64,000 nucleotides of DNA from Deltaproteobacteria bacterium (GTDB lineage Bacteria; Myxococcota; B64-G9): positions 1 through 64,000 of the forward strand of contig JAFGRB010000211.1 of the NCBI GenBank assembly GCA_016935365.1, read 5' to 3'. The position numbers and the translations under genes are program-made. Below, in pieces: positions 12,069-27,091 of the stretch (position 1 is its first letter; the number at the start of each line of letters is the position of its first letter). A model generated the notes under the pieces. It was not told the DNA's origin. It was given only the letters and a program-made list of their open reading frames with translations, and made no database searches.

Positions 12069-13375
12069 GACGCTCGGGGAGGTGGCGGACGGAGGCCTGG
12101 ATCCGAGACGAGCTCACGCGCTGTGTACGCTGCGGCAACTGCATGGCGGTCTGTCCGGTCTACGAGTTGCTGCGCGAGGAAGGCGCGGTGGCGCGGGGCA
12201 AGATCGCGCTCGTGGAGGCGCTCGCCGCGGGCGACCTCGAAGACGACCGGCACGCGCGTCATTTCCTGACCGCCTGTCTGCTCTGCGGCCGCTGCAAGAG
12301 CGCCTGCCCCAACGAGGTCGACACACCCGCCCTGGTCCAGTACGCGCGGGCTCGTCTCGCGCGCCGGTCTTGGCTCAAGCGCTGGTCATTGGGCCGCTTG
12401 CTCCCGGCGCAGCGTCTGCTGCCGCGTCTGCTCCGCGCCGCGAGGGCGATCCGGCTTTTGTGGGCGCGGAGGATCCCGGGCTCGAGCGGGCTGCACATCC
12501 GTTTCTCGCGCGGGGCCGACGGCCAGCGCAGGCGGATCCCGCCTCTGGTGCGGCCCTTTTTTCTGGATCGCGATCACCCTCCGCCCAAAGGCGAAGGGCC
12601 CGAGGTGGCCTTCTTCGTCGGCTGTGTGCACAATTACATGCGGCCCGAGTCGGCGCAGGCGGCCATCGATGCGCTCAGCGCGCTGGGTGCGAGGGTGCAC
12701 GTGCCTGCCGGTCAGGCCTGCTGCGGGCTGCCGGCCTGGGGCGCAGGCGAGAGCGAAGGCGCCCGCAAGCTCGCTCGCCGCAACCTGGAGGCGCTCGCAC
12801 CGGCGGGCGAGATGCCCGACTTCGTCACGTCCGTGTGCGCCTCGTGCGCATACATGCTCCGCTTTCACATGCATGAGCTGCTCGAGGCAGAGCCGGGCCT
12901 GGCCGAGCGGGCCCGGATGCTGATGAGCAGGGTGCTCCCCTTCTCAATGCTCTGGTCCCGGCTGGCGGGCTTGGACCGGGAAGGTGCTGGACGGCAGCGC
13001 AATGGCTCGCTGCTGACCTACCACGACCCCTGCCATCTCTCGCGGGCCTTCGGGGAGAAGGCCGCTCCGCGTTTTCTCCTGACGCGGCTTCGCGACAGGC
13101 GCTTCGTGGAGATGTCCCATCCATGTCGCTGCTGCGGGCACGGGGGCGTGTTCAATCTCGCCCATTTCGAGCTCTCGGCCGCCATGGCCCGGGACAAGGC
13201 GCGCAGGGTGAGGGAGAGCGGTGCGAGCGTCGTGGTCACCGAGTGCTCCGGCTGCCTCTTGCAGCTGAGCGAGGCGCTGGCGCAGGCAGTGCCGGCTGTG
13301 GAGGTCTGGACGACCGCCGAGGCGCTGGCCAGGTGCGGTGTCGAAGAAGCCGATCTCGGGCAGGGAGAGGATTGA
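12065..13375 (+). CDS. GlcF-type Fe-S oxidoreductase with two CCG domains
   Basis: 436 residues. GTG at 12065 overlaps the GlcD stop (GTGA). Two 4Fe-4S motifs lie near the N-terminus, CVRCGNCMAVCP and CLLCGRCKSACP. Two cysteine-rich CCG domains follow, the first with CCGLPAWGAGE and the second with CRCCGHGG plus the downstream CSGC. This is the GlcF/LutA/heterodisulfide-reductase-subunit layout. It likely forms the electron-transfer partner of the preceding FAD subunit, at the membrane or with ETF. An intergenic promoter (13398-13426) separates it from the next gene. Confidence 0.88.
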   Translation: MRRSGRWRTEAWIRDELTRCVRCGNCMAVCPVYELLREEGAVARGKIALVEALAAGDLEDDRHARHFLTACLLCGRCKSACPNEVDTPALVQYARARLARRSWLKRWSLGRLLPAQRLLPRLLRAARAIRLLWARRIPGSSGLHIRFSRGADGQRRRIPPLVRPFFLDRDHPPPKGEGPEVAFFVGCVHNYMRPESAQAAIDALSALGARVHVPAGQACCGLPAWGAGESEGARKLARRNLEALAPAGEMPDFVTSVCASCAYMLRFHMHELLEAEPGLAERARMLMSRVLPFSMLWSRLAGLDREGAGRQRNGSLLTYHDPCHLSRAFGEKAAPRFLLTRLRDRRFVEMSHPCRCCGHGGVFNLAHFELSAAMARDKARRVRESGASVVVTECSGCLLQLSEALAQAVPAVEVWTTAEALARCGVEEADLGQGED

Positions 13376-13426: not shown

Positions 13427-13480
13427 TGTCGCCGGATCGAGCTGAGGTCAACTATTTCTGCAATCGAATCGAGGGCGGTG

Positions 13481-14095
13481 ATGGCAAAAAAGACTTCGAA
13501 AAAAAAGGGGAAAAAGGCCATCAGGCGCGCCGTCAAGAAGGCGGTCAAGGCGGTGAAGAAGGCCAAGAAGAAGACCGGCAAGAAGCCTGCCAAGAAGGCT
13601 GCCAAGAAGCCTGCCAAGAAGGCTGCCAAGAAGGCTGCCAAGAAGGCTGCCAAGAAGCCTGTCAAGAAGGCTGTCAAGAAGGCGGTCAAGAAGGCGGTCA
13701 AGAAGGCTGCCAAGAAGGCCGTCAAGAAGGCCGTCAAGACCGTCAAGTCCAGGCCCAGCCCGAGGAAGGCCGGCAAGGCAGCGCCGACGAGGCCCGCAGC
13801 CAAGAAGCCGCGCGCGGTTCCGTTCTCGCTCGATTCCCGGCTGGCCCGTCAGAAAGATGTGGCCTGGCGCCTGATCGATGGCGAGGCGGTGATCATCACG
13901 CCGGCAGACAGCACCATGCACACCCTCAACGACACGGGCACGCGCATCTGGGAGCTCATCGACGGCAAGCGGACCGTGCGCGACGTGGCCCGGGCCCTGC
14001 AGGCAGAGTTCGAGGTCGAGTCGGAGCGCGCCCAGGATGACGCGCTCTGGTTCGTCGAGTGCCTGGCCAAGAAGGGCCTGATCGAGGGCAGCTGA
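13481..14095 (+). CDS. PqqD-type peptide-recognition protein with H1-like lysine-rich N-terminus
   Basis: 204 residues. Residues 1-112 are almost only Lys, Ala, Val and Pro in KKA-A/V-KK-type repeats, as in histone-H1-like nucleoid proteins. Residues about 123-203 form a complete PqqD domain: WRLIDGEAVIITPADSTMHTLNDTGTRIWELIDGKRTVRDVA followed by FEVESERAQDD and a final helix ending KKGLIE. PqqD domains are RiPP recognition elements that grip a precursor's leader and present it to radical SAM or other modifying enzymes. A precursor-like peptide, a kinase and a radical SAM gene follow at 21.2-24.0 kb. The fusion to a DNA- or polyanion-binding-like tail is unusual. I used ATG 13481, with GAGGG just upstream and the KAAKK region in frame. 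Confidence 0.85.
   Translation: MAKKTSKKKGKKAIRRAVKKAVKAVKKAKKKTGKKPAKKAAKKPAKKAAKKAAKKAAKKPVKKAVKKAVKKAVKKAAKKAVKKAVKTVKSRPSPRKAGKAAPTRPAAKKPRAVPFSLDSRLARQKDVAWRLIDGEAVIITPADSTMHTLNDTGTRIWELIDGKRTVRDVARALQAEFEVESERAQDDALWFVECLAKKGLIEGS
13529..13744 (+). repeat. In-frame KAAKK/KAVKK coding repeat
   Basis: A tract of AAGAAGG-CTGCC and AAGAAGG-C(T/G)GTC units of 12-15 bases encoding the lysine-rich half of the PqqD fusion. Near-identical units make the length prone to change by slippage or assembly error. Confidence 0.8.
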
Positions 14096-14194: not shown

Positions 14195-17100
14195 ATGAAG
14201 CTATCGAAAGTGTTGTGGATATTCGGCTTGCTTTCCTTGCTGGGTTCGAGCGCCTGCGATTGCGACGGTGACGCGGAGAACCCGTGTGACTGCGAACCCA
14301 CGATCACCTTCCTCAGCCCGACCGGCGGCGCGTTGACGGAGTTCAACGACACCAACGAGACCGAGGAGGGGATCCAGTACCCGGTTCGCATTCAACTTCG
14401 CTGTGTGCCCGACGGCACGTCCCTGACCTTCACGAACAGCCTCTCGCCGGGTGAGACGGTCCGCCGGGATGTATCCGACGGCGACGGCGATGGAGAGAGC
14501 AGCATCGAGTACGGCGAGCTCACCTTTCTCGACGGAGTCAACCGGATCTGCGTGACCGGCAGCGTCGAGGTCGCCTGGATGGAGGACGGGAGCCTGGGCT
14601 GCTCGACCCGGAGCGTACCCGAACTGGAGATCTGCAAGGACGTGACCGTACAGCTCGGCGTACCGGCTTGCCGTTTCGAGAATCCAGAGGATGGATCCAC
14701 GCTCACACAAGCGGATGACGACGATCCGATCGCGGCCGGCTTCCAGCAGGACGTGGCGGTCGTCTGCAAGGGCGTCGACGATGGACAGGATGTCGAGCTG
14801 AGCATCAACGCCAGGCCGCCCATCACGGGCGTGCTGGCCTTTTCCCGCGTCGACTTCGACAGCGTCGATCTGGCCGAGGGGGCCGATCTTTTGCACCTCG
14901 AGACCCAGGGCCAGGGCGGCGAGAGTGTGATCGCCGAGATCGGAGTGACCGTGGACACGGGCGGGTGCGCGGTCCGGCTAACCCCCATGGGCGGCGTCAC
15001 GTTCCGGGCCGCGGATGACGAGGAGCCCGGCGTCGAGGGCTTGCAGATCAGCCTGACCGTCTCGACCGATCCGGTCGGGGCCTTTGCCTGCGCGGATGGG
15101 AGCGCAGTCCGGGTCATCGTCGATGGACAGGAGTTCCAGGGCGTGCTTTCCGACGGGACGGCCATCGTGCTGGCCACTTTGCCGGACGGTGAGATCGAGG
15201 CCTTTGCCGAGGTGGAGGAGGCGGGTGGACGGACAGGGCGCTCGCTCGTCAATCGCTACTTCGTCTGCGCCTCTCCGGTCGAGGTGTCCATCCTGTCGCC
15301 GAGAGACGATCCCGATCACTCCACGCCCATCACCGATGCGGCGGATCGCGACCCCGCTCCGGGTATCCAGATCGCGGTCCGCGGGAATACCTCCGGGGTG
15401 CCGGACGCCGAGCGAATGTGGCTCAAGCTGGACGAGCGGATCGTCATGGACGGGCTCGATCCGCTTCGCCCGGTGGCCTTCCAGCCGGGCGGGGAGTACG
15501 AGTTCCGCTACCTCTCCTTCCTGCAGCCGGGCGAGCACGTCGTGAGCGTGGAGGGTGAGGACGCGTGCGGAGAGCGGGCCGCGATCAGCTCTACGGTCTG
15601 GGTGGTGACCGCCCAGGTCACCTGCCAGGTGGTGGACCCGGCCGACGGATCTACGCTGCTTGCAGCCGACGACAAGGACGGCGATCCGGATAACGACCTG
15701 CAGTATGACGTCGGTGTGCTGACCGCCAACGTCAGCGGCGGTGGCACATTCGAGATCCTCGTCGACGGCACGACCTTCGGTCCCTTCCCGGTGGACACGG
15801 ACACCCAGAGCGGGATGGGGGAGGTGCGCTTTGTCGATGGTCAGGGCATCAGCGTCCAGTGCCTGCTCTCGAGCGGAGAGGCCTCGCCCACCAACCGGAT
15901 CGATGTGGACGGCCATCCGCCGACGATCGAGATCACGGATCCTGCCGGAGGGGCGACTTTCCAGGATCCTGCTCAGGCGGTGTGCGTAGAGACGACCGGC
16001 GTGGAGAATGGGCAGCTCGTCACCGTGCTCGTGGAGCAGGGGGCGAGCTCGGACAGCGTCTCCGCCAGCATCACCGGCAACCAGGTCTGCATCGGCAACG
16101 TGCCCTGGTTCAGCGGTGCCAACACGGTCACGGCCAGCGTGAGCGATGCGGCCGGCAACCCGGCCGAGAGCACTCCGCTGGATGTGACCTACCAGTCCTG
16201 CACGGCCGAGCCGCAGATCACCTTCATCAACCCGGACCCGACCCCGCCGGTCGAGATATCGAATGCAGGTCCGTACACCGTCGAGGTCGACGTGACCGAG
16301 GTGCTCGACGCGCACGATGTCGAGCTGGTGATCGTGACCAACGGCGTGCCGGCCCAGCCCGTCACCCCGAACCGCTTCGGGGGCGGCCGGGCCGAGTTCG
16401 ACGTCGTGCTCGCCAATGGCAGCATCCAGTTCCAGGTGAGCGCGACCAACTTCTGCGGCACGGGCCAGGAGCAGCTGGATGCGCTCGTGGGCGATCCCAA
16501 CCTCCCGAGCATCGCCATTTCCTCGCCGGCGGACGGCGATTGCTCGCAGACCTCGACCGTGAGCGTGAGCGCCCAGACCACCAACGCCGACTCCCGGGTC
16601 TGCCTGTTCTGCTTCCGGCCGCGCTCGGCCGACGCGATACCCGAGTGCAGCCTGGCCACGCCGGGCTTCTGGACCACGGGTGCGGTCGACGGCGCGGGCG
16701 TGTGCAGCTCCCAGATCGACGCCCAGTTTCCGTCCGAGGGTGACTTCCAGATCTGGGCCAGCGTGTCCAATGACCACGGCAGCTCGACCTCGCCCGCGGT
16801 CGGCTACCGGATCGACGCCACGCCCCCGACGGTGAGCATCGACGAGCCTTCTGCCGGTGCCGTGTTCAACGCGTCGAGCCCCGACGCGGTGCCGGGCGGG
16901 GAGCTTCAGATCCGGGTCGTGGTGAGCGCCGACGTGCGCGACGGGCTGACGGCGGAGCTCACCGGCCACGACGGGATCGGAGACAGCCCGATGCCGGTCT
17001 TCTCGGGTGGGCAGATCACGTTCCAGCGGGTGACCGTGACCGACGGAGACCACAGCCTCGAGGCCCAGGTGACGGACTGCGCAGGCAACACCGGCGCATC

Positions 17101-20100
17101 CATTCCGGTCCAGATCACGGTCGACCGGATCGAGCCGGAGGTCATCGCGCTCGTCCCGGCCGACGGCAGCGCTTTCAGCGTGGCCGGCGACCAGGGCCTC
17201 GGCACGCCGGGCTTCCAGCGCAACGTCACCTGCCAGTTCGCTGCCGGCAGCATCCAGCAAGGCGACGCGCTGAGCCTGACGCGCCAGATCCAGGGGGTGG
17301 ACCCGACGCCGGTCGAGGTGGCCAGCGCCAGCCTCAACGCGGGCGAGACCAGCCGGAGCCTCGGGCTCGTGACCCTGCTGCCGCCTCCGCACAGCCACGG
17401 AAACCTGCGCCTCGTCTGCTCGGTGACGGATGCAGCGGGCAACGCAGGCTCGATCTACTCGGACATTCGGATCGACCTGGACGCCCCCGAAGTGGACATC
17501 ACCCGGCCGACCGACGGAGCGCAGCTCAACCGCTCGTGGGACATGTGCGCCCCGGCCGGCTTTCAGACCCAGGTCAACGTGAGCGTGACGAACATCGAGG
17601 CCGGGGACACCCTCTACCTGTGCGTGTGCGATCCGAGCGGCCCGAGCTCGTGCTCCAACGACGACGCGGGAGCATGCGGGGATGCGGGCTACGGGCGGAC
17701 GGTCACGCCCGGCAGCGTGGGCGGGCCCGGCACGGTGACGCTCAACTGCGTGGACATGCCCCAGGGCGACGTCCGATTGCGAGCCTACGCCGAGAACATC
17801 CCCGGCCAGGGCCAGTGGTCGGCGCCGGTGGCGGTCTACGTGGACTCGCTGCCGCCCACGGTGGCGACGCGGACCATCCTGACAGGCAACGGCGACGACT
17901 GCCTCAACCAGTCCGAGGGCGGCTTGCATGTCCGCCTGACCGTGGACGACCAGGGCAACAGCCTCGACGGGCGCACGGTGCGCCTGTACGAGGACTGGCC
18001 TCCGGGCACGGCGCTGCCCGGCGCGAGCGGGACGGTCGCGGGCGCTACGGTCGATCTGAGCGCCAGCCTGGTCTCCGGTGTGCACGTGCTGACGGCGGTC
18101 TTCTCGGACGCGCTCGGCAACCCCAACATGAGCACATCCCCGCCGATCACCGACCCCAACGCCACCTTCACGGTGACCGTGGATACAGCAGCGCCCGTCA
18201 TTTCCATTTCGAGCCCGAACAAGACCTTGCTGAACCTCTCCGACGACCTGATCTCGGGCGGGGATCTGGACTTCAACTTCTGCGTGAGCTGCTCGGGTGT
18301 CGAGGACGGCCAGGTGGTGACCTTCCTGCCGATGAACGCCACGGCCGCGGTGGCGGACGGCGCGGCCTGCGTGCAGACCTCCATCCCCGAGGGGGACACG
18401 CTGCTCGAGGTCCAGGTGCGAGACGCCTGCGGCAACCCGGAGCCCGGCTGGGCCACCGACCAGCTCGCGGTGCGTGCCGACCTGACTCCGCCTACGATCA
18501 GCTGCAATCCGCCCCCGGCGCAAGACGCTTACTACACGGATACCTCGGTCCACTTCATATGCCAGACCACGGGCACGGATTCGACCCAGCGGATCCAGGT
18601 GGTCTCGACCCAGGGCGGCCCGCGCTGCAGCCCCTACGTGGACGGCTCGGGCACGACCGACTTCTACTGCAACCTGCAGCCCGGGGTCCAGGACCTGGAC
18701 GTCACCGTGACCGATCCGGCCGGCAATGTGTCCGCGCCCTGGCAGAGCACCAATCTGGAGGTCGACATCGCGGGCTGCGACCTGGACGTGCTCGGTTACC
18801 TGCCGGTGGAGATTTTCAACGCCGCCGACGACAAGGACGCGGATCCATCGAACGGCCTGCAGATCGACGTGCAGGCCTGTAGCTCGACCTGCACCGGCAG
18901 CGACGTGCCCACGCCCGTGGTGCGGCTGCGGGTGAGCGGCGGGCTGGTCCAGACCAAGGACCTGGGCGCCGACGGCACGCCCGAGTGCGTGACCTTCTTC
19001 GATGTGAGACTGGACGACGGCGCAGCCGGCGTGGACGTGGAGGCCGAGATCGACGACGGTGGGGGGCACCTGTTCCCCGACGGCTTCCAGGTGGAGATGG
19101 TCGATCTGCTGCCACCGACTCTCGAACGCCTGGCCCCGGGCGAGGACGACGTGCTGTGCGTCGCCAGCCAGGGCAACCCCTCGGCCAACGGCGTGGACAT
19201 CCTCGCCGACCTGTCGACCGGTGCGCCCTGCAACATGGCCTTTGGCTTCCGGGTGACCGACGGCGGCGATCCGACCTACCCGGGCAGCCTTTCGCTGCGC
19301 GAGGGCGCGGACACCCGCGCGGGCCCGACCAGCATCACCGGCGTTCCGTCCCAGAACGTGAACTGGCCCAACGTGGCCCTGACCCACAATGCGAGCCATG
19401 CGCTGCAAGCCGTGGCGACCGACTACGCCGGCAACCCGAGCGTGATCGATCTGAGCGTGATTGCGGACGTGGTCGCGCCGGGCACGGTCAACGCCAGCGC
19501 CGCACTGGAGGACGAGCTGGTCGATCCCGCGGCCAGCCGCCACGCGGATGTGCTGGTGAGCTGGAGTGCGGTAGGCGACGACGGCGCGGACGGCACACCT
19601 GCGGGCTACGAGGTCCGCTACGCCACCGCGCCGATCAGCAGCGAGGCCAGGTGGCAGACCGCGGTGCCCGTCTACTCGGGCCCGAGCACCAGCCCGCCGG
19701 TCTTCGAGGGCTGGCCGCCGCTCAACACCTACTCCATCGCGGTCCGGGCCGTGGACGAGGTGGGCAACTACGGCGCCATCCCATCGCTCTCGCTCGCCAA
19801 CTACTGGCGGACTCACACCGTGGTGGCGCCGGGCGAGGGGGGCTACTTCGCCTATGGGCTTTGGAGCATCGGCGACGTGGATCACGACGGCTACGCCGAC
19901 CTGGCGGTCGGCGCGCACACCGAGCTCACGGGCGGCGGTGGCACGGATGGGGGCGCGGTCTACGTGTTCTACGGCCAGGACGACCTGAGCGCCTGGAGCG
20001 CGGGCCAGCGGCTGAGCAACGACACGGCCAGCGAGAAGTTCGGCTCCGACGTGGGCCGCATCGGCGACATCAGCGGGCCCGAGACCTGCGCGGGAGACGA

Positions 20101-21157
20101 CCAGGCCCGGATCGACGACTTGGTCGTCAGCGGGCGAGGGTACGGCAGCGGCCAGGGTCGGGTGTCGATCTACTTCGGCCGATGCCTGGCCAGTCTGCCT
20201 GCGGCGCCCGACATCGAGATCCGCGGCAACGTGGCCGGAGACCTCTTCGGTTACTACTCCGAGATGATCGGCGACGTGGACGGCGACGGCATCGACGACC
20301 TGCTCGTCAGCGCGCCGACCGCGAGCGCCGCGGGCAATGCTTATCTCTTCTTCGGGCGCTCCCAGGCGGACTGGGTGGCGGATAGCGGAGGAGACCGGGT
20401 GCTGTCCGCATCGGATGCCGATGTCGTGATCGTGGGCCGGGACGCGGAGGACTGGTTCGGCTACGCGAGCGGGATCAGCACGCTCGGCGACCTGGACGGT
20501 GATGGAATGTCCGAGTTCATCGTCGGTGCCAGCTCGGTCAACGACGCCTTCCTCTTCGATGGCCAGACCATCTATCTGGAGACCCAGACCGGCGACGGGA
20601 CGGCATACGCGGCTGCCGACAACCTGGCCATCTTCCACGAGGGTCCAAGCGGCATGTACAGCGGCTGCGATCCATACTACTTCTGCGTGGGTTTCGGCAA
20701 CCGCGCGGTGGGCAACGCGGACTTCGATCACGACGGATTGCCCGATCTGGCAGTTGCCGCCGCCTACTTCGAAAAGGTATACTTGTATCCCGGGGTGGCC
20801 GGAGGAGTCGACGATGTCGCTTTCAAGACGATCAACTCGACCGAGGGAAGCGTGTGGTTGGGTTGGGAGCTCGTCGTCGAGGATGTGAACATGGATGGCT
20901 GGCAGGACATCGCGCTGGGCACGAACACCTCGAACGGCCACAAGGCCATCTTCTACCTCAACCGGGGGAGCGCTCCCGAGTACTTCGGCAACTCACCGGA
21001 CATCGTCTTGAGCGAAGACAGCGAGTACTACGGGATTTCGATCGCGGTGGACGACTTCGACAGCGACGGATTGCCCGACGTGATCATCGGGAGCAACATC
21101 GCGGTCGACGCGGGTGGCGGTGACATGCGGGACGGGATGTTCTATCTGCACTACTGA
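14195..21157 (+). CDS. Giant surface lipoprotein: Ig-like repeats plus FG-GAP propeller
   Basis: 2320 residues from ATG 14195, with GGAGG 9 bases upstream (GTG 14168 would add nine residues). The leader ends GSSAC with Cys21, a lipobox. More than ten Ig-like/cadherin-like modules follow, many starting P-x-I-x-I-x-x-P and carrying an ADDxD...GxQxDV signature. A fibronectin-III-like segment comes next. The last ~450 residues contain FG-GAP/integrin-type calcium loops such as DVDHDGYADLAVG, DVDGDGIDDLLVS, DLDGDGMSEFIVG, DFDHDGLPDLAVA and DFDSDGLPDVIIG. An extended adhesin-like or matrix role on the cell surface is inferred. It lies between the PqqD fusion and the precursor-like peptide on the same strand, 46 bases before the latter. 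Confidence 0.85.
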   Translation: MKLSKVLWIFGLLSLLGSSACDCDGDAENPCDCEPTITFLSPTGGALTEFNDTNETEEGIQYPVRIQLRCVPDGTSLTFTNSLSPGETVRRDVSDGDGDGESSIEYGELTFLDGVNRICVTGSVEVAWMEDGSLGCSTRSVPELEICKDVTVQLGVPACRFENPEDGSTLTQADDDDPIAAGFQQDVAVVCKGVDDGQDVELSINARPPITGVLAFSRVDFDSVDLAEGADLLHLETQGQGGESVIAEIGVTVDTGGCAVRLTPMGGVTFRAADDEEPGVEGLQISLTVSTDPVGAFACADGSAVRVIVDGQEFQGVLSDGTAIVLATLPDGEIEAFAEVEEAGGRTGRSLVNRYFVCASPVEVSILSPRDDPDHSTPITDAADRDPAPGIQIAVRGNTSGVPDAERMWLKLDERIVMDGLDPLRPVAFQPGGEYEFRYLSFLQPGEHVVSVEGEDACGERAAISSTVWVVTAQVTCQVVDPADGSTLLAADDKDGDPDNDLQYDVGVLTANVSGGGTFEILVDGTTFGPFPVDTDTQSGMGEVRFVDGQGISVQCLLSSGEASPTNRIDVDGHPPTIEITDPAGGATFQDPAQAVCVETTGVENGQLVTVLVEQGASSDSVSASITGNQVCIGNVPWFSGANTVTASVSDAAGNPAESTPLDVTYQSCTAEPQITFINPDPTPPVEISNAGPYTVEVDVTEVLDAHDVELVIVTNGVPAQPVTPNRFGGGRAEFDVVLANGSIQFQVSATNFCGTGQEQLDALVGDPNLPSIAISSPADGDCSQTSTVSVSAQTTNADSRVCLFCFRPRSADAIPECSLATPGFWTTGAVDGAGVCSSQIDAQFPSEGDFQIWASVSNDHGSSTSPAVGYRIDATPPTVSIDEPSAGAVFNASSPDAVPGGELQIRVVVSADVRDGLTAELTGHDGIGDSPMPVFSGGQITFQRVTVTDGDHSLEAQVTDCAGNTGASIPVQITVDRIEPEVIALVPADGSAFSVAGDQGLGTPGFQRNVTCQFAAGSIQQGDALSLTRQIQGVDPTPVEVASASLNAGETSRSLGLVTLLPPPHSHGNLRLVCSVTDAAGNAGSIYSDIRIDLDAPEVDITRPTDGAQLNRSWDMCAPAGFQTQVNVSVTNIEAGDTLYLCVCDPSGPSSCSNDDAGACGDAGYGRTVTPGSVGGPGTVTLNCVDMPQGDVRLRAYAENIPGQGQWSAPVAVYVDSLPPTVATRTILTGNGDDCLNQSEGGLHVRLTVDDQGNSLDGRTVRLYEDWPPGTALPGASGTVAGATVDLSASLVSGVHVLTAVFSDALGNPNMSTSPPITDPNATFTVTVDTAAPVISISSPNKTLLNLSDDLISGGDLDFNFCVSCSGVEDGQVVTFLPMNATAAVADGAACVQTSIPEGDTLLEVQVRDACGNPEPGWATDQLAVRADLTPPTISCNPPPAQDAYYTDTSVHFICQTTGTDSTQRIQVVSTQGGPRCSPYVDGSGTTDFYCNLQPGVQDLDVTVTDPAGNVSAPWQSTNLEVDIAGCDLDVLGYLPVEIFNAADDKDADPSNGLQIDVQACSSTCTGSDVPTPVVRLRVSGGLVQTKDLGADGTPECVTFFDVRLDDGAAGVDVEAEIDDGGGHLFPDGFQVEMVDLLPPTLERLAPGEDDVLCVASQGNPSANGVDILADLSTGAPCNMAFGFRVTDGGDPTYPGSLSLREGADTRAGPTSITGVPSQNVNWPNVALTHNASHALQAVATDYAGNPSVIDLSVIADVVAPGTVNASAALEDELVDPAASRHADVLVSWSAVGDDGADGTPAGYEVRYATAPISSEARWQTAVPVYSGPSTSPPVFEGWPPLNTYSIAVRAVDEVGNYGAIPSLSLANYWRTHTVVAPGEGGYFAYGLWSIGDVDHDGYADLAVGAHTELTGGGGTDGGAVYVFYGQDDLSAWSAGQRLSNDTASEKFGSDVGRIGDISGPETCAGDDQARIDDLVVSGRGYGSGQGRVSIYFGRCLASLPAAPDIEIRGNVAGDLFGYYSEMIGDVDGDGIDDLLVSAPTASAAGNAYLFFGRSQADWVADSGGDRVLSASDADVVIVGRDAEDWFGYASGISTLGDLDGDGMSEFIVGASSVNDAFLFDGQTIYLETQTGDGTAYAAADNLAIFHEGPSGMYSGCDPYYFCVGFGNRAVGNADFDHDGLPDLAVAAAYFEKVYLYPGVAGGVDDVAFKTINSTEGSVWLGWELVVEDVNMDGWQDIALGTNTSNGHKAIFYLNRGSAPEYFGNSPDIVLSEDSEYYGISIAVDDFDSDGLPDVIIGSNIAVDAGGGDMRDGMFYLHY

Positions 21158-21357: not shown

Positions 21358-22080
21358 TTGCACAGACCTTTGCTTTTTTCCTTCCACGCCTGTGGACTAC
21401 CCTGCGAGCTTCATTGCGGGCCGTCGCTCGATGAGGCGGTTGCCTTCATGCTGGCGCCGTTTCGCGTCGCCATCTCCGGCGGCTACCAGCTGGATCTGAT
21501 ACGGGATCCCCAGACCGAAACGGAGCGCGTTCGCACGCTCGGCCGGAGCGCCACGCAGATCCAGCTCGGCCTGGGCAGCGACAGTCCCGCCCTGGTGTCG
21601 GCTGCGCTCGGCATGCTGCTCGTCCACGCCCTGGGACAGAACGGGGGGCTGCTGCTGCACGGCGCTTTCATGCTGCGAGATGACAGGGCTTTTCTCTTCC
21701 TCGGGCGGAGCGGCGCGGGCAAGTCGACCGCAGCGCGAAACGCTCGAAGCCTGATCTGTCTCCACGATGACAAGGTCGCGGTGCGATATGTCCGCGGATG
21801 CTGGCGGGCGTTCGGTGTGCCGATGCTCGACAACCGGGGACGGCCTGGAAAGCCCGGCAGCGCGCCGATCGATGGCCTGTATTTCGTACGCAAGAGCGAT
21901 ACGCTCGATCTGGTCGAGCTTCGGGGGGCCGAGGCGGTTGCCGAGCTCGCCGAGAATGTGATTCTACCGGCCGAGTACCGGCATCGCCGCGTGTTCGAGA
22001 CGGTCATGGCGCTCGCCGGGGAGGTTCGCTCGAGCTTGCTGCGCTTCACGAGAGACTCCCGGATCGATTCGCTTCTATGA
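21358..22080 (+). CDS. HPr-kinase-like (HprK-related) P-loop kinase
   Basis: 240 residues. LLLHGAFM, the Walker A motif GRSGAGKST (116-124) and LHDDKVAV follow the pattern of HprK C-terminal kinase domains. Such kinases occur in RiPP clusters, including those that phosphorylate a serine on lasso-peptide precursors (PadeK/ThcoK type), and in the PqqD-associated HPr-rel-A type systems. No PTS HPr gene is nearby, so a peptide substrate is more likely than HPr. TTG 21358 is the first possible start after in-frame stops and leaves 4 bases to the precursor gene; ATG 21448 would drop a conserved-looking N-terminus. The next gene starts inside its stop (ATGA). Confidence 0.78.
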   Translation: MHRPLLFSFHACGLPCELHCGPSLDEAVAFMLAPFRVAISGGYQLDLIRDPQTETERVRTLGRSATQIQLGLGSDSPALVSAALGMLLVHALGQNGGLLLHGAFMLRDDRAFLFLGRSGAGKSTAARNARSLICLHDDKVAVRYVRGCWRAFGVPMLDNRGRPGKPGSAPIDGLYFVRKSDTLDLVELRGAEAVAELAENVILPAEYRHRRVFETVMALAGEVRSSLLRFTRDSRIDSLL

Positions 22081-23990
22081 CAGACGCGATGCTCACAGAC
22101 GAGCCCCTTTTCCGCTATCGGACAATCACGCTGCTCCCGAGCCTTCTCTGCAAAGCGCGCTGTCCGCACTGCTGTATTCCGCTCGAGATGAGGACGAGAG
22201 ACGACTACGATCCGCGCGTGATCGAAGCTATCTTCTCGTCGATGCCGACGGGCCTGCGCTCGGTGACGCTCTCGGGCGGTGAGCCCTTCGACGCGCCCGA
22301 GCGCCTGCTCGCCCTGGTTCGGCGCGTCTCCGATTCGGGATGCGACTGTCACGCGGTCACGAATGGGCGATGGATTGAAGACCCAGCACGAGGTAGGGAG
22401 TTGCTCGCGGAGGCTGCGCAAAGAGGTCTTGCGGGGCTTGCGCTGAGCGTGGACGCCTACCGCGAAATGCTGTCGCTGGAGTCGGTGAGCAGCCTGGTGC
22501 GCGATTGCCAACGGCACGGAGTGGAGATCGTATTCAAGGGCGTCGGGAGAGCATCTCGGCGGATGATCGAGCGCTACTGTGATGCTGCGGGGCTCGATTT
22601 CGACCTGGCCGTCCAGTCGATCTCCGACCTGGAGCGAGCTGGAACCGCAGCGAGCCTCCGCGCGGATCGGATCGGGGGGCCCCGGGGCGAGGGGTGCTTC
22701 CATGTCGCGGAGCCCGCGATCTACATGGACGGAAGCGTGCTCATCTGCTGCTCGGTTCATCTGTTCCAGGGCTGCGATGCCCTGCTGCTCGGGCGAGTCC
22801 TGGACGAGCCGCTCGACGCGATCCTGGATCGGGCCAGTCGCGACTTCCTGCTGGCCGCCTTGGCCTTTCTCGGCCCTCGGGCGTTGCGGTGGCTCGCGGG
22901 CAGGCGTGCGATGCCCGGGCGTAGCAGCTGCCGGGTTTGCATGGCCACGCTGGGAGATCCGGCGCTCGTGGCCGCCGCGCGCCGGAAGATCGCCGGCGAC
23001 CGGGCGCTTCGCAGGGATCTTGCAGGCCGCAGCATGCTGTTTTCACACTTTCTGGACCGAGAGATCCAGCAGGAGCCCATTGCGAGCCGCTACGCGACCG
23101 CCCAGGAGCACCAGCGCCTGCTGGCAGACGAGCTGCGTACCGGCGCATATCGGAAAGCGATAGAGTCGGTCGTACGGCCCGGAGACACGGTGCTGGATCT
23201 GGGCTGCGGTGTGGGGATCCTGGCGCTGTTTGCAGCCCGGGCGGGGTGCCGGCGGGTGATCGCGGTCGAGAGGGAGAGCATCATCGACCAGGCCCGCGAG
23301 GCCGCACGGCGGGCTGGCCTGGCAGAGAAGATCGACTTCGTGCAGCAGGACGCGATGCGGCTCGAGCTCGATGCGCGCGCGAGCGTACTGGTGCACGAGC
23401 AGATCGGCTGTTATCTGTGGGACGAGGGTCTGGTGCCCAAGCTGGCTCGCGCCCGCAGGGACCTGCTCGAGCCGGGTGGGCGCATCTTGCCCTTCCGGAT
23501 CGATCTCTTCCTGGCGCCCTGCGCCCACCGCTCCGAGCTCGAGGCCGGCTTGGACTTCTGGGCCGAGCCTCGCTATGGCTTCGACTTCCGGCACATGGCG
23601 CAGCGCCACTTCGCCGAGCTCTCCTGGAAGGCCGGCCGGCCGCTGGTGATCGAGCTCGACGACGAGTCCTGCTTTCTGGCCGAGCCTGCGCTCGTCCACA
23701 GCATGGACCTGCGCGCGGAGTACATCACGCCGGACAGGATCGAGGCGCGCTTTTCGCTTCAACCCGGGGCCGAGTGCACCGGCATGTGCGGCTTCTTCCG
23801 CGTCCAGCTCACCGAGACGATCTCGTTCTCCACCGGCCCGAGGCCCGGCCCCAACAACTTCGGCCAGATCTTCATCCCCTGCGCGCGGCGGATCCGAGCG
23901 CCGCAGGGGGGCGAGCTGCGATTCGTGCTCTGCCCCGCACGTCTCCCCGAGCACTGGCGCTGGGAGTTTCAACTGCAGGAGGCCTCGTGA
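22077..23990 (+). CDS. Radical SAM/SPASM-like enzyme fused to a PRMT-like methyltransferase
   Basis: 637 residues. The N-terminal radical SAM domain has CKARCPHC (Cys25, Cys29, Cys32; CX3CX2C) and LSGGEP (66-70). A SPASM-like Cys set follows (Cys207, Cys224/225, Cys233, Cys285, Cys288). Residues about 335-637 match protein arginine methyltransferases. EHQRLLADELRTGAYRKAI is followed by SAM motif I VLDLGCGVG (372-380), a double-E loop with Glu441 and Glu450 (HEQIGCYLWDEG), and a C-terminal barrel. In that barrel the usual THW position reads NNF. The inferred role is radical modification and N-methylation of the nearby peptide. Starts in an ATGA overlap with the kinase gene and ends in a GTGA overlap with the next. 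Confidence 0.85.
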   Translation: MTDAMLTDEPLFRYRTITLLPSLLCKARCPHCCIPLEMRTRDDYDPRVIEAIFSSMPTGLRSVTLSGGEPFDAPERLLALVRRVSDSGCDCHAVTNGRWIEDPARGRELLAEAAQRGLAGLALSVDAYREMLSLESVSSLVRDCQRHGVEIVFKGVGRASRRMIERYCDAAGLDFDLAVQSISDLERAGTAASLRADRIGGPRGEGCFHVAEPAIYMDGSVLICCSVHLFQGCDALLLGRVLDEPLDAILDRASRDFLLAALAFLGPRALRWLAGRRAMPGRSSCRVCMATLGDPALVAAARRKIAGDRALRRDLAGRSMLFSHFLDREIQQEPIASRYATAQEHQRLLADELRTGAYRKAIESVVRPGDTVLDLGCGVGILALFAARAGCRRVIAVERESIIDQAREAARRAGLAEKIDFVQQDAMRLELDARASVLVHEQIGCYLWDEGLVPKLARARRDLLEPGGRILPFRIDLFLAPCAHRSELEAGLDFWAEPRYGFDFRHMAQRHFAELSWKAGRPLVIELDDESCFLAEPALVHSMDLRAEYITPDRIEARFSLQPGAECTGMCGFFRVQLTETISFSTGPRPGPNNFGQIFIPCARRIRAPQGGELRFVLCPARLPEHWRWEFQLQEAS

Positions 23991-24940
23991 GCGCCTCGGT
24001 GGCCAGGGAGAAAGGCATCGAGAAGCGTGCGGGCGGGGATGAACCCCGCCCCTACGATGCCAGGGAGCCCTTTGTGATCCTGCCGGACGAGGCGGGCGTG
24101 CTGCTCTCGGATCCGGGACTGCTGCAGCTCGCGGACGAGCTCATCGCAGTGGGCGCTTGCATGGAGCCCGAGCTCCTGTGCGGGGACAGGCTCGAGCTGG
24201 AGCGCGTCGAGCGGGTGGAGCCGGGCTGGATCGCGGTCTTCGAGTGGCAGGGAAGGTTGTATGCCCATCGCGTCACCCGGGTTCGCGGGCGGCGATTCTG
24301 GGCGAGCGGCGACTCGCACCGGGGCGAGCAGGGGCCGGTGGACATGGCCGCGCTGCGGGGCCGGGTCGTGGCGGTAAGGCGCGATGGCGAGAGGCAGCGG
24401 ATAGCCAGTGGACTCGCGGGCCGGATCCGGGGCGGGCCGATCAAGGAGCTTCGTATGCTGGTCCAGCGCCACGCGAGCCTGCGACGGCTTGCAGAGAAGA
24501 TCCTCGGCAGTCCGGTGATCCAGATCGGCCTACGAGCCTGCCTGGGTGGGGTGCGTATCCAGGCGGAGCGCGATCCGGATCGGCTGCTCGCCATGGCCAC
24601 CTCGGCCGGCTTTCGGCTCTCGGAAGATCGGGTGCGGGAAGGGCAGATCAGAGCTTGCAGTGCGTGCGCTCGCCGGGCGAGCCGGCTAGGCTGGATCGTG
24701 GGCTGCGAGATCGAGCCGGACGCCATCGCGGCGCGGCTCTTCGTCCGCCCGCTCGCCCGGGGGCTGGGCTTGCAGCCGCAGCTTGTCAGCAGGCTCGAGG
24801 AGGTCGCCCAGCACGCCGGGCGCGGGTACTTGCTGCTCGCAAGTCCGACACCGGGCTACAGGCCCTTGCGCGAGGCCGAGCGCCGGAAGTGGCAGGGGCT
24901 TGACGGTGAGGGCTGGACGGTGAGGGAGATGACGAGATGA
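23987..24940 (+). CDS. S24/S26 peptidase-like protein with altered nucleophile and GNAT-like tail
   Basis: 317 residues from GTG 23987, which overlaps the previous stop and has CAGGAGG upstream. Residues about 50-130 resemble the S24/S26 (LexA/signal peptidase) core: GACMEPELLCGDRLELERV, AVFEWQGRLYAHRVTRV, ASGDS and a closing GRVVAV. In the canonical G-x-S-M-x-P box the serine is Cys58, and no obvious catalytic Lys is seen (HRVTRV, His94). Residues about 200-310 faintly resemble a GNAT acetyltransferase (ARLFVRPLARGLGLQPQL...A..AG.GYLLL). Either a modified leader peptidase or a non-catalytic binding domain is possible. Coupling to the radical SAM gene suggests a role in peptide maturation. 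Confidence 0.6.
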   Translation: MSASVAREKGIEKRAGGDEPRPYDAREPFVILPDEAGVLLSDPGLLQLADELIAVGACMEPELLCGDRLELERVERVEPGWIAVFEWQGRLYAHRVTRVRGRRFWASGDSHRGEQGPVDMAALRGRVVAVRRDGERQRIASGLAGRIRGGPIKELRMLVQRHASLRRLAEKILGSPVIQIGLRACLGGVRIQAERDPDRLLAMATSAGFRLSEDRVREGQIRACSACARRASRLGWIVGCEIEPDAIAARLFVRPLARGLGLQPQLVSRLEEVAQHAGRGYLLLASPTPGYRPLREAERRKWQGLDGEGWTVREMTR

Positions 24941-26815: not shown

Positions 26816-27091
26816 ATGTGGTACCGGGTCGTGAGAATTCTCTGTCTTGCCTTGCTCGTGTCGTTCGTCCTGGTCGGCTGTGCTGCGATGGAGGATCCCG
26901 GAGACTACGACGGCGTGTGCTATGACTGCCGGACGGTCTGCTTCGGGTGCACGGATCAGGTTCTGGATCTATGTCTGGGTGATTGCCACGCATGCCAGGG
27001 CTACTCGGACTGCTTTGGCTGGCTGGAGAACCGCTACGATGGCATGCAGCTGGTGATGGCAGACTGGCTGGCTGTCGACTGCGACCGCTGA
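26816..27091 (+). CDS. Small Cys-rich lipoprotein
   Basis: 91 residues, with TAGGAGG before the ATG. The signal ends VLVGC (Cys22). The mature chain has regularly placed cysteines: CYDCRTVCFGC, then CLGDCHACQGYSDC and a final C. The pattern suggests a disulfide-rich or metal-binding fold outside the cell. It is unlike any family I can name. A sigma-54 promoter lies directly upstream, so expression is probably tied to an enhancer-binding regulator. Confidence 0.78.
   Translation: MWYRVVRILCLALLVSFVLVGCAAMEDPGDYDGVCYDCRTVCFGCTDQVLDLCLGDCHACQGYSDCFGWLENRYDGMQLVMADWLAVDCDR

Follow-up and report, generated by a model that had tools for sequence, protein, structure and literature searches.

A histone-H1-like lysine-rich tail on a PqqD-type protein of an uncultured Myxococcota family, and the linkage of its clade to genes for giant lipoproteins

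Small proteins of the PqqD type normally guide enzymes to their peptide targets, and RREs are known from the biosynthesis of small peptides (RiPPs). In the stretch of DNA analyzed here, referred to as the window (64,000 nucleotides of contig JAFGRB010000211.1 from a Deltaproteobacteria bacterium, the genome of which comprises 7.7 Mb in 481 contigs), a PqqD domain is joined to a long N-terminal tail resembling histone H1. This raises the question of whether such a fusion is genuine and what a polycationic extension may bring to a domain of this type.

The open reading frame concerned occupies positions 13481–14095 of the forward strand and encodes, according to the program translation, 204 residues in a single frame without stop; its ATG at 13481 is preceded by a ribosome-binding-like sequence, GAGGG (13471–13475, same strand). 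The lysine-rich tail takes up the first 114 codons (13481–13822), a length that refines the figure of about 110 residues given in the preliminary description, and the remainder (13823–14095) corresponds to the PqqD (RRE) domain and the stop codon. Residues 1–114 include 47 lysines (41%), 29 alanines and 11 valines for a net charge of about +53, and the domain is slightly acidic (net charge −5). The number of lysines in any 100 residues reaches 45 in this protein versus at most 12 in every other gene called in the window. Most of the tail is encoded by a 12-bp tandem array, GTCAAGAAGGCT, present in 17.6 copies (13532–13739, forward strand), and because of this repetitive DNA the exact tail length could be misassembled. 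No in-frame start lies between tail and domain: the next ones after the ATG are GTG at codon 25, within the tail, and GTG at codon 127, inside the domain, and the alternative start envisaged earlier near codon 113 is absent from this frame. The AlphaFold model gives mostly low pLDDT values for the tail, yet contains two predicted helices in it. Around the gene, no sigma-70-like promoter was detected and the terminator count is at chance level.

Concerning the domain, the PF05402 signature matches residues 135–201 over its whole length (model positions 1–67 of 67) with 69.2 bits against a curated cut-off of 23.4 (E = 3.8e-19), which bears out the earlier view that the PqqD domain is complete. 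It is predicted confidently by AlphaFold, with block pLDDT values of about 84–96 and the order β-β-β followed by α-α-α. The best structures retrieved with Foldseek are TbiB1-leader complexes (target TM 0.85–0.88) and PqqD (5sxy), and a profile comparison matches TbiB1 with E = 1.2e-11. Assignment to a more specialized PqqD group was rejected in each case, the scores being below the equivalog cut-offs for PQQ biosynthesis (TIGR03859, 36.4 for a cut-off of 46), HPr-rel-A (TIGR04353, 19 for 35) and SynChlorMet ScmD (TIGR04248, 38.2 for 100), and below the cut-off for lasso peptides (NF033536, 43.3 for 80). Based on the predicted fold and the profile match, the protein is most likely a discrete RRE of the PqqD-fold, peptide-binding type. 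Such elements hold on to a segment of a peptide and bring in the enzymes that modify it (PMC7470986). With PqqD and the lasso B1 proteins TbiB1 and TfuB1 it has in common the fold, the Pfam family and the stand-alone domain, whereas it differs from them by its N-terminal lysine-rich tail, by scores below the lasso and PQQ cut-offs and by its position next to the gene of a giant lipoprotein.

The comparison with relatives, all uncultured Deltaproteobacteria/Myxococcota represented by MAGs, shows that the fusion is not peculiar to one assembly. Orthologs of the tailed PqqD come from eight further genera of the family; seven are complete and one (G005) is truncated at a contig end. All eight complete family proteins, including that of the window and representing eight genera, carry an N-terminal lysine-rich tail of 44–150 residues with 23–50% lysine and a net charge of +11 to +75; most begin with MAT or MAK and continue with basic residues, and no alignable motif could be recognized among them. 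Lysine codons are a mixture of AAA and AAG in all family orthologs but one. In each complete ortholog, a start preceded by a ribosome-binding-like sequence marks the beginning of the tail, and no start so preceded is present at the junction between tail and domain. The preliminary description had named, as the observation that would count against it, relatives encoding the domain without extension and from an alternative start; in the family, the tail and the start at its head are instead found in 8 of the 8 complete orthologs. Likewise, its statement that one frame covers both parts without any frameshift agrees with the seven further complete orthologs, which, stemming from other genomes, exclude a frameshift, a wrong start or a misassembly as the origin of the fusion. 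The joining of tail and domain is thus real and conserved within one uncultured Myxococcota family.

Outside this family, none of about 70 further Myxococcota PqqDs carries a comparable tail; four (L045, L153, L155, L159) possess short basic leaders of 15–21 residues. The search for other lysine-rich PqqD fusions, as had been suggested, was therefore successful in the family and without result among these other PqqDs. The gain of the tail appears as a single change on the PqqD tree, and since close PqqDs outside the family lack it, it represents a lineage-specific extra. The genome of the window encodes three further PqqDs on other contigs (C3, C234 and C112; L002–L004), none with a lysine-rich tail, and an HprK-like gene is found near those of C3 and C234.

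Lysine-rich tails in this family are not restricted to PqqD. PanC (pantoate-beta-alanine ligase, or pantothenate synthetase) has a lysine-rich N-terminal extension in 8 of the 8 family genomes having the gene (L239–L246), and about 20 other Myxococcota PanCs show no clear extension of this type, with one modest case (L263). The ribosomal protein L17, at its C-terminus, and proteins of other kinds are also tailed. A protein which we take, from reading its sequence, to be Topoisomerase-VI-B-like (L250) has a lysine-rich N-terminus, and small stand-alone lysine-rich H1-like proteins occur in the same family (L066, L074, L079, L251, L254, L255). Because PanC bears a similar lineage-specific tail, the tail of PqqD is probably not a device for leader recognition. 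The idea of an H1-like tail attached to a leader-binding domain is thus supported for the single frame, for the fusion itself and for the leader-binding type of the fold, whereas the PanC tail argues against a role specific to leader recognition.

These observations bear directly on the alternative that survives best, and which we consider quite possible. According to it, the tail arose by an expansion of repeats that is close to neutral or of general use: slippage of AAG-rich 12-bp repeats would have given many unrelated cytoplasmic proteins of this lineage lysine-rich N-termini, adding solubility or charge without any defined localization, and the PqqD would act like its tail-less relatives. 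The 12-bp array encoding the tail, the variable tail length without alignable motif, the comparable PanC tail in all eight family genomes having the gene and the further tails on L17, the Topoisomerase-VI-B-like protein and others are what this explanation would lead one to expect. On the other hand, a strongly basic tail has been kept in the eight complete orthologs of eight genera despite their divergence, and with mostly mixed lysine codons, which suggests selection on charge.

Precedents for H1-like tails as tethers come from Pseudomonas, in which such tails link AlgP to polyphosphate granules and PhaF to PHA granules (PMC9239181). Like these proteins with their KPAA tails, the window protein joins a lysine/alanine-rich low-complexity repeat tail to a folded domain (PMC9239181), and its 114 residues with 41% lysine and a charge of +53 correspond to the long, low-complexity, lysine/alanine-rich and predicted disordered type of tail that characterizes them; unlike in AlgP and PhaF, the tail is N-terminal, contains KKAx instead of KPAA and has an RRE as its folded partner. 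By this likeness, a tethering to the nucleoid, to RNA or to lipid is possible. A more specific version, in which the tail would target PqqD to polyphosphate, to PHA-type granules or to the nucleoid in the manner of AlgP and PhaF and so organize peptide modification in space, has in its favor the shared composition class (PMC9239181) and the strong positive charge, but no granule-associated gene was recognized among the neighbors and the similarly tailed PanC has no obvious granule role, and we regard this version as improbable.

More information on the function of the domain is obtained from its genomic context. We selected 78 Myxococcota PqqD loci by their score to the family profile and listed their neighbors. 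In a tree built from the PqqD sequences alone, 45 of the 78 fall, together with the window protein, which is one of them, into one group with moderate support (SH-aLRT 85 on 92 columns), leaving 33 others, three of which are cut. A gene for a giant lipoprotein adjoins 39 of the 45 clade members, being located directly downstream on the same strand in 37 cases and divergently in 2, and none of the other 33 PqqDs lies beside such a gene; among background genes of the same loci, a giant gene is found downstream in 11 of 568 (about 2%). Several PqqD-giant gene pairs overlap by 4 bp. Closer inspection led us to drop the flagged giants of five loci (L157, L164, L177, L180, L181), which turned out to be a truncated radical SAM gene, off-frame open reading frames or an unrelated gene lying far away; another locus (L037), the giant homolog of which is truncated at a contig end, was counted by hand. 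The comparison is based on the plain counts, and these are approximate, since the loci are not phylogenetically independent, genes were called with a simple program and a small number of giant assignments were corrected manually. The contrast in giant-gene linkage between the PqqD clades is nonetheless large, and the window PqqD combines its place in the clade with an adjacent giant gene on the same strand (14195–21157). As clade relatives adjoin its gene across the phylum, the giant lipoprotein is a likely partner of PqqD.

The giants of the clade measure roughly 1200–3100 residues, some being cut at the ends of the retrieved sequence, and begin with a signal of the lipoprotein type. Outside the family, FG-GAP is present in all five that were scanned, and four of the five also have an Ig-like Big_13 match. 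Inspection of the N-termini by eye did not reveal a conserved leader motif. An HprK-like gene follows most giants for which sequence is available beyond, being absent from the stretches examined in three genomes (G012, G040, G178), and radical SAM genes are present beyond the giant in many clade loci.

In the window, all of the following genes being on the forward strand, PqqD is preceded by a conserved neighbor, an Fe-S subunit of the glycolate-oxidase GlcF type (12143–13375, start uncertain). The next gene after PqqD encodes the giant Ig-like/FG-GAP lipoprotein proposed as its client (w15, 14195–21157, the start being the ATG before the signal peptide), followed by an HPr-kinase-like protein with the P-loop GRSGAGKST and a weak ScmC match (w16, 21358–22080), a fusion of a radical SAM domain with a PRMT-type methyltransferase (w17, 22077–23990), and a peptidase S24-like protein for which there is a weak match only (w18, 23987–24940). 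The order in the family is talB-like, etfB, etfA, glycolate-oxidase-type subunits, PqqD, giant lipoprotein, HprK-like, radical SAM and S24-like; the talB-like, etfB, etfA and glycolate-oxidase-type names are presumed from reading the sequences, with Pfam backing the ETF, FAD-oxidase and Fe-S subunits. In 7 of the 9 family genomes the giant gene lies next to PqqD; it is located elsewhere in another (G002), and in G004 the tailed PqqD is kept and no clear giant ortholog was found. Clear orthologs of the radical SAM and of the HprK-like protein are each present in only 5 of the 9, so neither is obligatory. These gaps, like the moderate clade support and the absence of a visible leader motif in the giants, count against the cassette reading proposed below.

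Further observations concern the surroundings of the cassette. The best PDB match of w17 is PRMT6 (E = 6.6e-29), with PRMT-like motifs including the double-E HEQIGCYLWDE, and PRMT-like genes also occur near PqqD loci of two other genomes (G051, L205; G044, L195). A small Cys-rich lipoprotein is conserved near the cassette (26816–27091 in the window; 9779–10039 in L035), and in G004, where the giant gene is missing, the gene of such a protein directly follows the tailed PqqD. An anti-phage system was considered and rejected: PADLOC yields no match for PqqD or the kinase-like protein, and for w17 only domain-level matches to the Mad2 and prokaryotic viperin models.

Related systems are known. 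Phosphorylation of precursor peptides by HPr-kinase homologs is known from lasso clusters (PMC8498205), and in DUF2063/DUF2282 systems RREs are paired with precursors bearing Sec signal peptides (PMC12710340), a combination also proposed here, with the difference that those precursors are annotated as peptides whereas the candidate client has about 1200–3100 residues. SynChlorMet clusters, with the kinase-like ScmC and the PqqD-like ScmD, and HPr-rel-A systems share the pairing of PqqD and HprK-like proteins with the window cassette, and the matches obtained include the models for ScmC, ScmD and HPr-rel-A; the window scores are, however, far below the curated cut-offs, and a giant lipoprotein lies inside the window cassette. 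Among the papers searched, none combines PqqD with FG-GAP and radical SAM, or PqqD with lipoprotein and Myxococcus. In the best reading, the modification cassette is undescribed. That the PqqD-like domain has ceased to be an RRE and instead regulates the downstream lipoprotein gene as a winged-helix protein binding DNA or RNA, its tail strengthening nucleic-acid binding, is very unlikely: RREs may descend from helix-turn-helix regulators, with which they share the fold (PMC7470986), the PqqD gene immediately precedes the giant one and a lysine-rich tail would suit such binding, but the top fold and sequence matches are leader-binding RREs and not regulators, the domain itself is slightly acidic, and the HprK-like and radical SAM neighbors fit a modification cassette.

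Our preferred reading, to which we assign a probability of about 0.45, is that the window protein is the RRE of a Myxococcota-wide cassette, with the giant lipoprotein as its likely client and the conserved tail as an added polyanion tether. The cassette would consist of PqqD, then the giant exported lipoprotein, built of Ig-like domains with an FG-GAP region at its C-terminus, then the HPr-kinase-like protein and, often, a radical SAM enzyme. Most probably the RRE would hold either an unannotated peptide or a cytoplasmic part of the lipoprotein precursor, and would recruit to it, before export, the kinase plus the radical SAM enzyme where present. This ancestral function would be independent of the tail, a low-complexity polycationic segment gained once, at the N-terminus and in this family only, which most likely attaches the protein, by charge and without specificity, to the nucleic acid of polysomes or the nucleoid or to another polyanion. 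The fold, the tail, its conservation and the gene linkage are observed here, whereas the client, the recruitment and the target of the tether are inferred. A bolder form of the proposal, that Myxococcota use RRE-guided modification on a giant surface lipoprotein rather than on a small peptide and that one family has fixed its RRE to nucleic acid or polysomes by the H1-like tail, thereby catching the precursor near its synthesis and before export, appears to us rather doubtful.

The linkage between PqqD and the giant lipoprotein is the larger result, the tail being a novel variation of a domain already known and not a new kind of system. Together with the similar tail of PanC, it nevertheless provides a natural experiment in which an H1-like polycation has been added to an ordinary cytoplasmic protein. 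If the linkage holds across Myxococcota, it would carry the RRE principle over to surface proteins of very large size and offer a directly testable substrate.
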